Shown here: one piece after another, positions 8,337 through 61,410 of the stretch
Position numbering within the stretch: the first letter of the stretch is position 1
Layout of the letters: each line of letters starts with the position of its first letter
Assembly: GCA_016234445.1 (NCBI GenBank)
Contig: JACRBT010000005.1
Coordinates: 124,001-188,000 of the forward strand
DNA from: Chloroflexota bacterium
GTDB taxonomy: Bacteria; Chloroflexota; Dehalococcoidia; Tepidiformales; Tepidiformaceae
DNA: 64,000 bases
Direction: 5' to 3'
Position numbers and translations under genes: made by a program
Notes under the pieces: model-generated
Seen by the model: the letters and a program-made list of their open reading frames with translations, nothing else
Told to the model about the DNA's origin: nothing
Databases searched by the model: none

Positions 8337-10255
8337 GCATGCTCGGCGAAGGCTTCCGCGGCACCCCCGGCACCAGCCGCAACCGCCCCCACGGCAACCT
8401 CACGGCACTGAAGCTCGCCGTCATCCTGCTCTTCAGCATCCTCGTCGCCCGGCTCGGCTACATGCAGATCATCAACGGCGACGCCTACGCCCAGCGTTCC
8501 CGGGAAAACCACATCACCGCCACCAACATCCTCCCGCCGCGCGGCCTGATCGTCGACCGCAATGGCCAGCCATTGGTCAACAATGTTGGCATATACTCCG
8601 CCACCATCGTGCCCGAACTCCTCCCCGAGGGCGAAGCCGTCCGCTACGCCATCTACCAGCGCCTCGAACAGCTCCTTGGCGTTCCCGCCCTCGAAATCCG
8701 CCAGCGCGTGCTCGACGCCGAAGCGGAGCGGCGTGCCCACCTCGAACTCCCGATCAAGAAGTACCTGACCAAGGCGCAGGCGCTCCAGCTGGAAGAAGTC
8801 TCCACCGACATGCCCGGCGTCAGCCTCACGATCACCCCCGGCCGCGAATACATTGCCGGGTCTGCCTTCAGCCACATCCTCGGGTTCGTCGGCGCCCAGA
8901 CGCCCGAGGAGCGCCCGGCGCTGAAGAAGCAGGGCTACGCCATCAACGAACCCGTTGGGAAGGACGGCATCGAGGCCTGGTACGAGGACGAGCTTCGCGG
9001 CGACATCGGCCTCAGCGCCACCGAACGCGACGCCCAGGGGCACCTCATCCAGGCGCTGAAGACGAAGGACCCGGTGGCAGGCAACAGCCTCACCCTCGCC
9101 ATCGACGCCGGCCTCCAGGAGTTCGTCGCCCAGCTCCTCGAAGACTCACTCGAATCTGCCGGGACCATCGCGACCACTGCGGCTGCGGTCGTCATGAGCC
9201 CGAAGACCGGCCAGGTCTACGCACTCGTGTCCCTCCCGACGTTCGACAACAACCTCTTCGCCCGGCCCGATGAGCGAGGCCAGGAGTACCAGTCGCTCCT
9301 CGACGATCCCCGCAAGCCCTTCCTCAACCGCGCTCTCACGGCCGAGGCGCCGGGCTCCACCTTCAAGCTCGTGACCGCCAGCGCCGGCCTCCAGAACGGC
9401 AACCTCACCACCTCTTCCAACCGGACCGTGACGTCCACCATCCTCGAAATCAAGGGCGAGAACGGGGTCATCTACCCGTTCACCGACTGGCGCGCCCACG
9501 GCTACGTGGATTTCTACACGGCCATTGCATGGTCTTCCAACCACTTCTTCTACCAGGCCTCCTGCGGCATCCCCCAGGAAGGCATCCGCGGCATGGGGAA
9601 GAACTCGGAAGAGTCGGCGGCGGTCCTCGCCCACTACGCCCGCGGCTTCGGCTTCGGACAGGGCACCGGTATTGACCTGTTTGGCGAAGGCGACGGCATC
9701 GTCCCGACGCCTGACTGGAAGCGCCGCCTCTACGCCGGCCCCCAGTTCAACGAAAACGACCGCGACTGGTTCTACGCCGACACCTGCTTCATGGGCATCG
9801 GCCAGGGCGACGTCACCGCCACGCCCATCCAGGTTGCGCGCATGACCGCGGCGGTCGCCAACGGCGGCAAGCTCCTCACGCCCCGGATCGTCAAAGACGT
9901 CGTCTCCCCGGACGGCACCGTGAAGGAACTGAAGCCCGAGTGGAAGCAGGTGCCCGTCGACGCCAAGAACCTCGCCGAAGTCCGCAAGGGCATGCTCCTC
10001 TCCGTGAACGACGGCGCCGGCCAGCGCGCCTACATCCCGGGCCTCGGGATCGCGGGCAAGACCGGTACCGCCGAATTCGGCCCCGTCCTCGCGAACGGCA
10101 AGCAAGCCCAGCACGCATGGTTCACCGGTTTCGCTCCCTATGACGACCCCGAAGTCGTCGTGACCGTCTACTTCGACCTTGGCGTCGGCGGCGACAAGGC
10201 GGCGCCCGTCGCCGCCCGCATCTTCCAGTACTTCGCGGAGAACGTGACCCCGTGA
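8333..10255 (+). CDS. mrdA: Penicillin-binding protein 2 (class B transpeptidase)
   Basis: 640 residues from GTG 8333, which follows GGGAGGGAAG; the ATG two codons later is an alternative. One N-terminal membrane anchor (about residues 26-45), then the PBP dimer domain with PPRGLIVDRNGQPLVNN near residues 66-82, then the transpeptidase domain. The catalytic motifs are S-T-F-K at about residue 342, S-S-N at about residue 401 and K-T-G at about residue 576. It cross-links peptidoglycan during elongation with RodA as glycosyltransferase. The start overlaps a 14-codon minicistron, and its own stop overlaps the rodA start (GTGA). Confidence 0.95.
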   Translation: MSMLGEGFRGTPGTSRNRPHGNLTALKLAVILLFSILVARLGYMQIINGDAYAQRSRENHITATNILPPRGLIVDRNGQPLVNNVGIYSATIVPELLPEGEAVRYAIYQRLEQLLGVPALEIRQRVLDAEAERRAHLELPIKKYLTKAQALQLEEVSTDMPGVSLTITPGREYIAGSAFSHILGFVGAQTPEERPALKKQGYAINEPVGKDGIEAWYEDELRGDIGLSATERDAQGHLIQALKTKDPVAGNSLTLAIDAGLQEFVAQLLEDSLESAGTIATTAAAVVMSPKTGQVYALVSLPTFDNNLFARPDERGQEYQSLLDDPRKPFLNRALTAEAPGSTFKLVTASAGLQNGNLTTSSNRTVTSTILEIKGENGVIYPFTDWRAHGYVDFYTAIAWSSNHFFYQASCGIPQEGIRGMGKNSEESAAVLAHYARGFGFGQGTGIDLFGEGDGIVPTPDWKRRLYAGPQFNENDRDWFYADTCFMGIGQGDVTATPIQVARMTAAVANGGKLLTPRIVKDVVSPDGTVKELKPEWKQVPVDAKNLAEVRKGMLLSVNDGAGQRAYIPGLGIAGKTGTAEFGPVLANGKQAQHAWFTGFAPYDDPEVVVTVYFDLGVGGDKAAPVAARIFQYFAENVTP

Positions 10256-57844: not shown

Positions 57845-57875
57845 TTGACTTGCTCTCAAAGTTAGCCTAGCCTAA
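57845..57875 (+). promoter_or_regulatory. FTR1 promoter with overlapping DtxR/IdeR-like box
   Basis: TTGACT (57845-57850), a 17-bp spacer and TAGCCT (57868-57873) form a promoter. The 19 bases 57857-57875 (CAAAGTTAGCCTAGCCTAA) match the DtxR/IdeR box TTAGGTTAGSCTAACCTAA at 15 of 19 positions and cover the -10. This fits iron-bound repressor blocking iron-uptake transcription. Confidence 0.6.
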
Positions 57876-57911
57876 TCTTCGACGGAAGCTACTACTGGCA
57901 GAGGACTCGCG

Positions 57912-58772
57912 ATGGCGTTCTCGTTCCTGGTCACACTCAGGGAAGGCGTGGAGATGGCCCTCATCGTCGCCATCCTCCTCGGCTACCTCCGTTCGATTGG
58001 CCAGCGGCGCCACTTCCGCCATGTCTGGGCCGGGGTTGGGCTTGCCGCGGCGATCTGCATCGCCATCGGGGCCGGCCTCGAACTGGCCTCGAAGGAACTG
58101 GACAAGCGCGTTGTCGAAGCCTTCGAGGGTTTCGCGATGATCTTCGCCGTCCTGGTCCTCACGGGGATGGCCGTCTGGATGCGCCGCCAGGCGAGCGGCA
58201 TCTCGGCCGAACTCAAGCACCAGGTCGACGCCGCCATCGGCAAGGGCTCGGTGACCGCGATCGTCCTCCTCGCCGCCACCTCGGTCGGCCGGGAGGGTCT
58301 CGAAACCGTGCTTTTCCTCTTCGCCGGGGCGAGCAACGGCGTCTCCGGGCCCCAGTACGTCCTCGGCGGTCTCCTCGGGTTCGCCGTCGCCGCCGCTATC
58401 GGGACCGGCATCTACCAGGGCAGCACGCGCATACCTCTTCGCCCGTTCTTCCTTTTGTCGGGGCTGCTGCTGCTGGTGCTCGCGGCCGGGCTTCTCGCGA
58501 ACTCGGTGACAAAGCTCTACGAGGCCGCGATCATCAGCGACCTCGGCAGCCGACCCTGGGACACCGAAAGCCTTATCTCCATCACCTCCACCGAGGGCAA
58601 GTTCCTCAGCACCCTGCTCGGCTACGACTCCGCCCCGTCGCTCACGCAAATCGCGCTCTACTGGGGCTATCTCGTCCCGGCCGTGCTGCTCTTCCTCGCC
58701 TTTCCCACCTGGCGACGGCGCCCGGCTCGTGCCCCGGCGACCGTGGCCGCCCCCTCCTCGACATCCCACTGA
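57912..58772 (+). CDS. efeU: FTR1-family iron permease (EfeU-like)
   Basis: 286 residues, about seven membrane helices. Both ferric-binding motifs are present: TLREGVEMALIVAILLGYL near residues 8-26 and VGREGLETVLFLFAGA near residues 121-136. Takes up ferric iron after oxidation of ferrous iron by a partner. The next gene, 33 bp on, encodes a cupredoxin lipoprotein. A DtxR-like box covers the promoter. Confidence 0.92.
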   Translation: MAFSFLVTLREGVEMALIVAILLGYLRSIGQRRHFRHVWAGVGLAAAICIAIGAGLELASKELDKRVVEAFEGFAMIFAVLVLTGMAVWMRRQASGISAELKHQVDAAIGKGSVTAIVLLAATSVGREGLETVLFLFAGASNGVSGPQYVLGGLLGFAVAAAIGTGIYQGSTRIPLRPFFLLSGLLLLVLAAGLLANSVTKLYEAAIISDLGSRPWDTESLISITSTEGKFLSTLLGYDSAPSLTQIALYWGYLVPAVLLFLAFPTWRRRPARAPATVAAPSSTSH

Positions 58773-58805
58773 ACTCTCACATCACGAACACTCCCGGAGG
58801 TTCCC

Positions 58806-59552
58806 ATGTCCCGCTTTGTCCCCGGATTCCTCGGTATTCTCGCTCTCGCCGTCCTTGCGGCGGCCTGTGGTGGTGGCGATGGCGGCGAGCGCCGCGTCAT
58901 CCAGCTTCGCCAGACCGACGAAAACTGCACCCCTGCGACGCTCGAAGTCGGCGCCGGCGAAAAGGTCACCTTTGAAGTGACGAACGACGGCAAGAAGGAC
59001 GCAGAGATCGAGGGCATCGACGGGATGCGCCTGGAAGAGCTCCTCGTGCCTTCCGGCAAGACGCGCTCGCAGAAATGGACGGCCCCCGGCTCGGCGGGTG
59101 TCCAGAAGCTCAAGTGCTACGTGCCCGGCGGCCAATCCACCATCATCGAGGTCACCGTGGCCGCGAAGACCGGCGTCGACGTTGGCGGCGCCGCCGACCG
59201 GGCATCGTCCCGCGGCACGACGAAAGCCCCCAACGCCACCGTCACCGTCGACCTGACCGAATACCGCGTGATCACGGACGTGGCCTCGGTCGCGGCCGGC
59301 CCGACGAAGTTCGTTGCTCGCAACCAGAGTAAGTCCGAAGTCCACGAGCTCGCGGTGCTCTTTGTGAAGGCGGACGGTTCCTTCGACAACATGGGCGAAG
59401 TCGAAGACATCGACCCGGGGAAGTCCGGGGAGATTGTGCTCGATCTCCCGAAGGGGAAGTACGTCCTCGCCTGTGTCATCGTCCCCGGGGAGGCCGGGAG
59501 CAAGCTGGACCACTACAAGGAAGGCATGCGGCTGGACTGGCAGGTCAATTGA
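58806..59552 (+). CDS. Double-cupredoxin lipoprotein, EfeO-like, without peptidase M75 domain
   Basis: 248 residues. Lipoprotein signal with L-A-A-A-C near residue 21. Domain 1 (about residues 30-118) has C-T-P near residue 41 and a KLKCYVPGG end, like the EfeO cupredoxin. Domain 2 (about residues 138-248) has VHELAVLF, GKYVLACVIVPGE and LDHYKEGM, which supplies His, Cys, His and Met in type-1 copper order. The M75 domain of normal EfeO is missing and no EfeB gene is near. It may bind copper and oxidise ferrous iron for the FTR1 permease. Stop codon abuts the capA-like stop. Confidence 0.78.
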   Translation: MSRFVPGFLGILALAVLAAACGGGDGGERRVIQLRQTDENCTPATLEVGAGEKVTFEVTNDGKKDAEIEGIDGMRLEELLVPSGKTRSQKWTAPGSAGVQKLKCYVPGGQSTIIEVTVAAKTGVDVGGAADRASSRGTTKAPNATVTVDLTEYRVITDVASVAAGPTKFVARNQSKSEVHELAVLFVKADGSFDNMGEVEDIDPGKSGEIVLDLPKGKYVLACVIVPGEAGSKLDHYKEGMRLDWQVN

Positions 59553-61295
59553 TCACGGGGCCGGCGGGAGCTCCGCGGTTGCCTGGAAGACGTCCCCCAG
59601 GATCTTGGCGCGTAGGGTGCCGCCAACGAACTCCGGGTGGTACTGGTCGACGATCTGGTAGGGCATCAGCCGCACGTTGACCAGGCGTTTCCCCAGGAAG
59701 TTGGCCTCCAACAGGTAGCCCTGGCTGTGCTCCGGCGTGTGCTGCTGGTCGAAGATGAGGTTCCCCAGCGCGTAGGCGATGAAGCCCTGGCCGCGCGGCT
59801 CCACTGCCTGGACCCAGTGCGCCTGGTTCCCCACCACGAGGTCGGCCCCGGCGTCGACCGCCGCGCGGAGCGCCTTGATGCTGCGGGGGCTTGGCGTGTG
59901 GGTGTCTTCCGTCCCCGACTGGACCTGGACGACCACCACGTCGACATCAGCCTTCAGCTTGCGGATACGGTCGCTGAACCGCGCCAATGAGAGCTCGCTC
60001 GCGGGGCGGAAGAAGGCAGGCTCCCCGGCTGCGTTCTCCTCGGCGTAGCTGTCGTCGAGCGGGGCGGTGCCGGCGGCGGTTGCCGTCGCTTCGAGCTCGT
60101 AGGCGGCGACGTCGTCGAAGCCGAGGACGCCGAAGCGGACGCCGTTCACTTCGAAGATGGCGGGCGCGAGTGCCTCTTCGAGGTTCCTCCCGCCGCCGAC
60201 GTGGCGTATCCCGGCGGCGTCAAGCAGCTCCAGGGTACGCAGGAAGGCCCGGTCGTCGCAGAAGGCCTGGCCGCAGTCGAAGATGTGGTTCGTGGCGACC
60301 GTGACTTCGTCGATCCCCGCGAGGGTCAGCGCCGCCATCACCTCCGGCGGGGAGGTCAGGTTCGTCGTCGCGAGGCAGCCGTAGGGAGCCCCGATGTCCT
60401 GGATGCTGCCATCGAGCGACCCGAGGGCAAGGTCGGCAGCGGCGAGGTAGTCCCCGACCGGTCCCCGGAGCGCGGCGGCCCAGTCCCCGGTGGCCTTGAT
60501 CTTCACCAGCGTGCAGCGCGACTGGAGGATGTCGCCGGTCGCCACGACGATCGTGGCGACCGGCAGTTTCGCCTCGATCCGGGATGTTACGTCTGCCAGT
60601 GCTGCTTCCCCGCGTTTCGTCCCGGCGCTCACCGCCACGCGCCGGACGAAGGGCCACTGCGACCGGTCGCCACGCCCGCGGACGATGTCCACGCCGTCGA
60701 CGGCGAGCGCGCTGACCGCCGGGGTCACCAGGTCGAGCGGTATGAAGGCGATCATCCCTGTGCCGGGGACGGCCGCGGCCTGGATGAGGGAGGGGTAGTC
60801 AGCGTAGCGCTTCGTGTGTGTGCCGCCGAACTGCTGCACGAGGCTGATGTCGGCGATGGCGAGCCCAAACTGGGGCTTGCCGCCGATCCCGCCGACGGTT
60901 GCCCAGGTTGTCTCGCCCGAAAGAAGCGCGAGGAGCTGGGCGCCGGTCACGGAGTCGACGGCTGTGTCCAGGGAGGCGACGGGGACGAAATACTCCACGA
61001 TCACGCCGTCGGCACCGTCGCTCTCAGAGAACGAAAGGTCGGCGGTTTCGCCCGCGGCGGCAGGTGCGAAGCCGGCCGGGCCCAGCCCGCCGGGGAGGTC
61101 GCCTGAATAGTGGAGGGTGGGGTTGTCGTCTTTCCCGGCGATGGCGTCGTGCAGGCTGGAAGAGCCGCCGTCGTTGCCGGTTTCGTCGTAGACCACGGCG
61201 CCGAGCGCAAGCAGCGCCCCGGAAAACGTCCCCGCCGACAGGACGAAGGCTATTCGCCAGCCGCGGTTCGAGGGTTCCCGCCCGGGAATTGCCAT
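59553..61295 (-). CDS. CapA-like metallophosphatase (PGA_cap family), membrane-anchored
   Basis: 580 residues. N-terminal helix (about residues 13-34). The catalytic part is in the C half: VATGDILQSRC near residue 253, LGSLDGSIQDIGAP near residue 291, VTVATNHIFDCGQ near residue 331 with the N-H pair, GVRFGVLGFDDV near residue 388, VVVVQVQSGTE near residue 467 and LVVGNQAHWVQAVEPRGQGFIAYALGNLIFDQ near residues 502-533. The N half is a unique extension. Role in capsule or wall polymer is only by family. Start chosen at ATG 61295; convergent with the cupredoxin gene. Confidence 0.82.
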   Translation of the reverse strand: MAIPGREPSNRGWRIAFVLSAGTFSGALLALGAVVYDETGNDGGSSSLHDAIAGKDDNPTLHYSGDLPGGLGPAGFAPAAAGETADLSFSESDGADGVIVEYFVPVASLDTAVDSVTGAQLLALLSGETTWATVGGIGGKPQFGLAIADISLVQQFGGTHTKRYADYPSLIQAAAVPGTGMIAFIPLDLVTPAVSALAVDGVDIVRGRGDRSQWPFVRRVAVSAGTKRGEAALADVTSRIEAKLPVATIVVATGDILQSRCTLVKIKATGDWAAALRGPVGDYLAAADLALGSLDGSIQDIGAPYGCLATTNLTSPPEVMAALTLAGIDEVTVATNHIFDCGQAFCDDRAFLRTLELLDAAGIRHVGGGRNLEEALAPAIFEVNGVRFGVLGFDDVAAYELEATATAAGTAPLDDSYAEENAAGEPAFFRPASELSLARFSDRIRKLKADVDVVVVQVQSGTEDTHTPSPRSIKALRAAVDAGADLVVGNQAHWVQAVEPRGQGFIAYALGNLIFDQQHTPEHSQGYLLEANFLGKRLVNVRLMPYQIVDQYHPEFVGGTLRAKILGDVFQATAELPPAP

Positions 61296-61410
61296 GCGCG
61301 CATGTTCGGCGCGCGCCGGGGGCGGGTCAAACCCTGGCCCCTCAACCCTGGCCCATCGGGGCGCGGGCTTTCGCGGGCCTGGTCCCACTCACATTGGAAG
61401 GGCCCCGTAT

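Follow-up and report, generated by a model that had tools for sequence, protein, structure and literature searches.

The EfeUOB system of E. coli and B. subtilis combines the FTR1-type permease EfeU with EfeO, which carries a cupredoxin (Cup) and an M75 domain, and with the DyP protein EfeB. Forms of EfeO with Cup and M75 and forms with M75 only are summarised in PMC9174327. In FtrABCD of Brucella and Bordetella the FTR1-type permease FtrC works with the small cupredoxin FtrB, proposed as a ferrous oxidase, and with FtrA and FtrD. The EXE glutamates of FtrB bind Mn(II), a mimic of Fe(II), and Cu-FtrB speeds up Fe(II) oxidation 3.5-fold over autoxidation; iron oxidation in vitro by FtrA and FtrB was reported only recently (PMC11966278). 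FTR1 with a cupredoxin and without M75 is already known in kind, from FtrBC and the EfeO-Cup family. In yeast, the permease Ftr1p is paired with Fet3p, a partner with several cupredoxin domains. The locus described here shares the FTR1-type permease with these systems, yet differs from EfeUOB in having neither M75 nor EfeB, and in a lipoprotein with two Cup domains, the second of which carries the full set of type-1 copper ligands. In titles and abstracts on EfeU, EfeO or FTR1 together with cupredoxins, a scope outside which Rajasekaran et al. 2010 on EfeO-cupredoxins falls, we found no fused two-domain FTR1 partner with a full blue-copper set.

The FTR1-lipoprotein gene pair

The window, the whole stretch of 64,000 nucleotides that was analyzed, lies on contig C8 of a 3.54 Mb genome of a Chloroflexota bacterium that is 97% complete. 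It contains the following features of the locus:

57857..57880, + strand: DtxR/IdeR-like iron box in two overlapping registers, with 15/19 and 14/19 matches to TTAGGTTAGSCTAACCTAA
57912..58772, + strand: FTR1/EfeU-type iron permease, 286 aa (PF03239, NF041756)
57939..57953, + strand: first RExxE motif, REGVE, FTR1 residues 10-14 (from the sequence)
58290..58304, + strand: second RExxE motif, REGLE, FTR1 residues 127-131 (from the sequence)
58806..59552, + strand: double-cupredoxin lipoprotein, 248 aa (gene call, Pfam and NCBIfam domains, AlphaFold2 model)

Both genes lie on the same strand, 33 bp apart, and GGAGG precedes the start of the lipoprotein. An antisense ORF at 57867-58769 and other mirror ORFs were rejected as genes, being by-products of high-GC coding. 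The permease, the sole copy in the genome by profile search, matches Pfam PF03239 with 150.8 bits (E 6.6e-44) and the NCBIfam EfeU model NF041756 with 243.4 bits, slightly below the cut-off of 255. Other genomes share this architecture at identities of 46-58%, a recurrence that is more than chance would give. No third gene is conserved around the pair in seven neighborhoods of 9-13 kb each; at this two-gene locus, with its unconserved flanks, genes for FtrA (P19) and FtrD are not in the operon.

The original prediction of a two-gene unit of FTR1 and a double-cupredoxin lipoprotein at 57912-59552 proved exact in its coordinates, and Pfam and NCBIfam models match the domains. Its claim that the lipoprotein lacks an M75 domain was confirmed by Pfam search. 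Likewise, no EfeB gene follows: the downstream neighbor (59553-61388) is encoded on the other strand. It had also named a partner encoded elsewhere as evidence against itself; across the 97%-complete genome, neither M75 (PF09375) nor DyP/EfeB (PF04261) gave any match.

The iron box CAAAGTTAGCCTAGCCTAA, in its 15/19 register, sits 55 bp before the FTR1 start. Apart from the two overlapping registers, no site in the 64 kb window reaches 13/19, and simulated sequence totaling 320 kb contained none of at least 14/19. The search consensus is that of IdeR/DtxR (PMC8464063); allowing up to three mismatches to the IdeR consensus gave no match, the FTR1 box having four. Many relatives, though not all, have a box of 13-15 matches 38-60 bp before FTR1, and the genome encodes one DtxR-family repressor. 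As judged from these sites, the unit is apparently iron-regulated. Overall, the locus is most likely an iron-uptake unit, and its role in iron is well supported.

Two cupredoxin domains with different ligands

The lipoprotein is organized as follows:

58806..58868, + strand: lipoprotein signal peptide with lipobox-like LAAAC and Cys C21 (from the sequence; C21 invariant in relatives)
58890..59162, + strand: domain 1, EfeO/FtrB-type cupredoxin, residues ~29-119 (Pfam Cupredoxin_1, structure matches)
58926..58928, + strand: C41, counterpart of the N-terminal EfeO Cys by alignment
59004..59012, + strand: E67-I-E69, EXE motif (E-x-E invariant in 17 domain-1 sequences)
59115..59117, + strand: C104, conserved cupredoxin Cys of domain 1 (invariant in the domain-1 alignment)
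59223..59549, + strand: domain 2, auracyanin/EfeO-like cupredoxin with full type-1 ligand set, residues 140-248 (profiles, model)
59343..59345, + strand: H180, predicted type-1 copper ligand (invariant, n = 19; aligned to auracyanin His)
59472..59474, + strand: C223, predicted type-1 copper ligand (invariant, n = 19; aligned to auracyanin Cys)
59511..59513, + strand: H236, predicted type-1 copper ligand (invariant, n = 19; aligned to auracyanin His)
59526..59528, + strand: M241, predicted axial type-1 copper ligand (invariant, n = 19; aligned to auracyanin Met)

For the mature protein, AlphaFold2 gives a model with a mean pLDDT of 85.4. Both domains are well modeled and the linker between them has low confidence; with a pTM of 0.52, the mutual placement of the two domains is not fixed. 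The NCBIfam EfeO model matches both domains, domain 2 best, and the Pfam Cupredoxin_1 match falls in domain 1. Each domain has closer relatives outside the lipoprotein.

The predicted model of domain 1 superimposes on FtrB of Brucella (8vuk; Z 12.1, rmsd 2.0, 89 residues aligned) and on the N-terminal domain of EfeO (7wgu; Z 11.9, rmsd 1.8, 88 aligned), and it also matches a Bacillus Cupredoxin_1 protein. By sequence profile, the domain is similar to EfeO (E 4.7e-5) and nitrosocyanin (4.7e-4), and a CopI model matches weakly within it. Domain 1 retains the EXE motif of FtrB. The copper ligands of FtrB itself are reported to be D118 and H121 (PMC11966278), which is not the type-1 set, and the fusion of two domains found here is a further difference. 

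C41 is present in 15 of the 17 domain-1 sequences and missing where a single domain has its own type-1 set.

Domain 2 matches EfeO (E 8.3e-10) and auracyanin 6kol (E 6.8e-5) by sequence profile. Within the full model its best match is auracyanin 1qhq (Z 13.6, rmsd 2.3, 109 aligned). Modeled alone (pLDDT 89.5), it is closest among solved structures to E. coli EfeO (Z 12.8, rmsd 2.1, 90 aligned), with the auracyanins at Z 10.8-10.5 (1qhq, Z 10.8). An alignment of 19 sequences from this phylum has only eight invariant columns, and four of these are H180, C223, H236 and M241, which align with the His, Cys, His and Met of auracyanin 6kol. The His, Cys, His and Met that had been read in type-1 order in the second domain are thus present and invariant among relatives, on a predicted cupredoxin fold. 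Copper binding by domain 2 is probable on this evidence. By alignment, the full type-1 set is absent from the Cup domain of E. coli EfeO.

The ligands are spaced C-x12-H-x4-M in every complete FTR1-linked copy, and C-x4-H-x4-M, with the ligands still invariant, in more distant members of the domain-2 family. The latter spacing is that of rusticyanin, with ligands H85, C138, H143 and M148 (PMC517927). The Cys-His loop of domain 2, with 12 residues where rusticyanin has 4, is modeled with modest confidence (pLDDT means 62-78). Auracyanin, the blue-copper protein of Chloroflexus and Roseiflexus, shares the predicted fold and the aligned ligands but has the 4-residue loop; domain 2 also differs from it in its fusion with an EfeO-type domain and its link to FTR1. 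A protein with two type-1 cupredoxin repeats (C-x4-H-x4-M) occurs in a genome from another class of the phylum, G714 (L097, 1501-2394, minus strand), and was not seen beside FTR1.

The similarity of both domains to EfeO qualifies two parts of the original prediction. An EfeO-type domain followed by a blue-copper domain is a correct description of the ligands, which differ between the two, but too sharp a contrast of families, because domain 2 is itself EfeO-type; both domains belong to the EfeO-Cup neighborhood. Both marks of an EfeO-Cup are found, namely similarity to the EfeO N-terminal domain and linkage to an iron-transport gene (13 genomes). A double cupredoxin in place of EfeO and EfeB is likewise right in that the genome has no M75 or EfeB, but the EfeO-like character of both domains suggests that the lipoprotein is rather an EfeO without M75 plus a second Cup domain.

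Foldseek matched the whole model best to two-domain laccases. A multicopper oxidase was nevertheless rejected: only single domains fit, and over the pair the laccase-like arrangement gives an rmsd of ~13 Å and a TM below 0.4. The whole lipoprotein contains just two histidines, H180 and H236, both of them predicted type-1 ligands, so it has no T2/T3 trinuclear cluster and is not a multicopper oxidase. The HxH motifs and T2/T3 ligands of Fet3p-like enzymes are not found in it.

FTR1 partners across the Dehalococcoidia

We surveyed 393 genomes of the class Dehalococcoidia, finding FTR1 above the cut-off in 69 and M75 in 12. Only two genomes (G014 and G129) have both; in these, FTR1 is followed by an EfeO with Cup and M75, and in G014 a DyP gene lies behind. 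The locus had been proposed as a simpler version of EfeUOB. This holds for its composition, FTR1 and a double cupredoxin with no M75 or EfeB, but is overstated if taken as an oddity, since FTR1 without M75 is the rule in the class (67/69) and many of its FTR1 genes lack any cupredoxin partner.

Thirteen genomes, which belong to five families of the class, have the fused double cupredoxin immediately after FTR1; a sample of 400 genomes drawn from across the phylum yielded no fused copy outside the class. The two domains are encoded by separate tandem lipoprotein genes in G003, G079 (L076 = L058) and G010 (at a contig edge). G015 and G019 carry domain 1 behind FTR1 and encode, at another locus, a domain 2 that shares ~65% identity with that of the window; in G008, FTR1 is accompanied by an EfeO-like Cup alone. 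Some eight related FTR1 loci encode a domain 1 that lacks type-1 ligands, with no adjoining domain 2, showing that type-1 copper beside FTR1 is not indispensable.

A single cupredoxin with both EXE and the full H...C-H-M set stands beside FTR1 in seven genomes (G012, G013, G021, G199, G083, G298 and G052), so a type-1 site beside FTR1 recurs. An example reads DHEFES...YCDITGHRQAGM, and these forms lack the counterpart of C41. Comparison of the sequences suggests that the fused form splits the iron site and the type-1 copper between two domains. Loci of this second architecture, with one small lipoprotein carrying EXE and H-C-H-M in one domain, are L014, L013, L012, L121, L122, L123 and L131.

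For 15 further FTR1 loci, these profiles detected no cupredoxin within the 4-7.5 kb taken; several of them adjoin a Fur- or DtxR-like gene. Regulators next to FTR1 in other families of the class are Fur-like at L115, L119 and L129 and DtxR-like at L127. At L116 (G062:C11, 2264-5195), FTR1 lies between two ORFs that look like the G domain and the membrane domain of FeoB, and a single open frame of 1010 codons in G060 (C37:6230-7879, minus strand) contains two FTR1 matches, possibly a permease fusion.

In a tree of domain 2, a weakly supported branch (64/78; 70% of bootstraps) sets the FTR1-linked copies apart. One genome, G106, has the double cupredoxin and no FTR1 match. At this locus (L107, G106:C5:136000-150000, gene at 8854-9579), domain 1 has diverged and the ligands of domain 2 are retained; the flanking genes, one TrmO-like and one for a small helix-turn-helix regulator, are of the same kind as at L055.

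A candidate copper-dependent route for iron

We propose, with a probability of roughly 55%, that the pair is an iron-regulated unit for Fe(II) uptake: Fe(II) presented by domain 1 would give up its electron to the type-1 copper of domain 2, and FTR1 would import the iron. When iron is plentiful, the DtxR-family repressor would shut off both genes; scarcity would lift the repression, and permease and lipoprotein would be made together. The lipoprotein would sit next to the permease, anchored to the outer face of the membrane. Domain 1, with its EXE motif and acidic patch, may bind Fe(II) and hand it over to FTR1, while the copper of domain 2, if loaded, would accept the electron released on oxidation of Fe(II) to Fe(III), and FTR1 would carry the resulting Fe(III) inward. 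This electron path is drawn by analogy with FtrB, EfeO and Fet3p; as in Fet3p-Ftr1p, a type-1 copper beside an acidic iron site would be the point of electron entry. Fet3p differs in that the lipoprotein has no type-2 or type-3 copper ligands. Lacking a trinuclear center, it cannot reduce O2, and the electron would pass to another carrier, such as a cytochrome or another cupredoxin.

The lipoprotein might instead serve FTR1 only as an extracytoplasmic iron receptor, as EfeO does for EfeU in Bacillus subtilis, any copper in domain 2 being structural or incidental and without a redox step. Both domains are EfeO-like by profile and predicted fold, several FTR1 loci make do with a domain 1 that has no type-1 ligands, and EfeU with EfeO forms a minimal ferric-uptake complex according to earlier work cited in PMC9174327. 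We nevertheless consider a receptor without redox function rather unlikely, as all four type-1 ligands are invariant in a domain whose other positions diverge to ~30-50% identity, and the full H-C-H-M set reappears in single-domain FTR1 partners of other families.

Still more doubtful is that domain 2 is a cupredoxin for general electron transport or copper handling, co-transcribed or fused by chance, in a unit that may serve copper too. It does belong to a broad family of stand-alone cupredoxins present in the same genomes and unlinked to FTR1, it is found alone at remote loci in two genomes, G106 retains it without FTR1, and the weak CopI match in domain 1 would fit a link to copper. However, the FTR1-linked copies are split from their paralogues by one change on the tree, if in only 70% of bootstraps, adjacency or fusion to the FTR1 partner is repeated, and an iron box lies upstream. 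FTR1-type proteins belong to an iron/lead transporter superfamily with lead-uptake members, which would allow for a cation other than iron. That the permease transports such a cation is very improbable, given that EfeU is its best model, that the iron box precedes it and that several FTR1 genes of the class adjoin Fur- or DtxR-like regulators.

Under the proposed Fe(II) uptake with electron transfer to domain 2, the two genes suggest a pared-down bacterial counterpart of the ferroxidase and permease of yeast. Tentatively, the lipoprotein might do the job of Fet3p without a multicopper oxidase, through an EfeO-type iron-presenting domain fused to a blue-copper domain, with uptake coupled to a respiratory or other carrier and not to O2 or peroxide. 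At stake is what oxidizes Fe(II) for bacterial FTR1 permeases. Within one class, fused, tandem and single-domain forms occur, and here a complete type-1 ligand set is found on the sole partner of the permease, which makes the link between copper and iron directly testable in a two-gene system.
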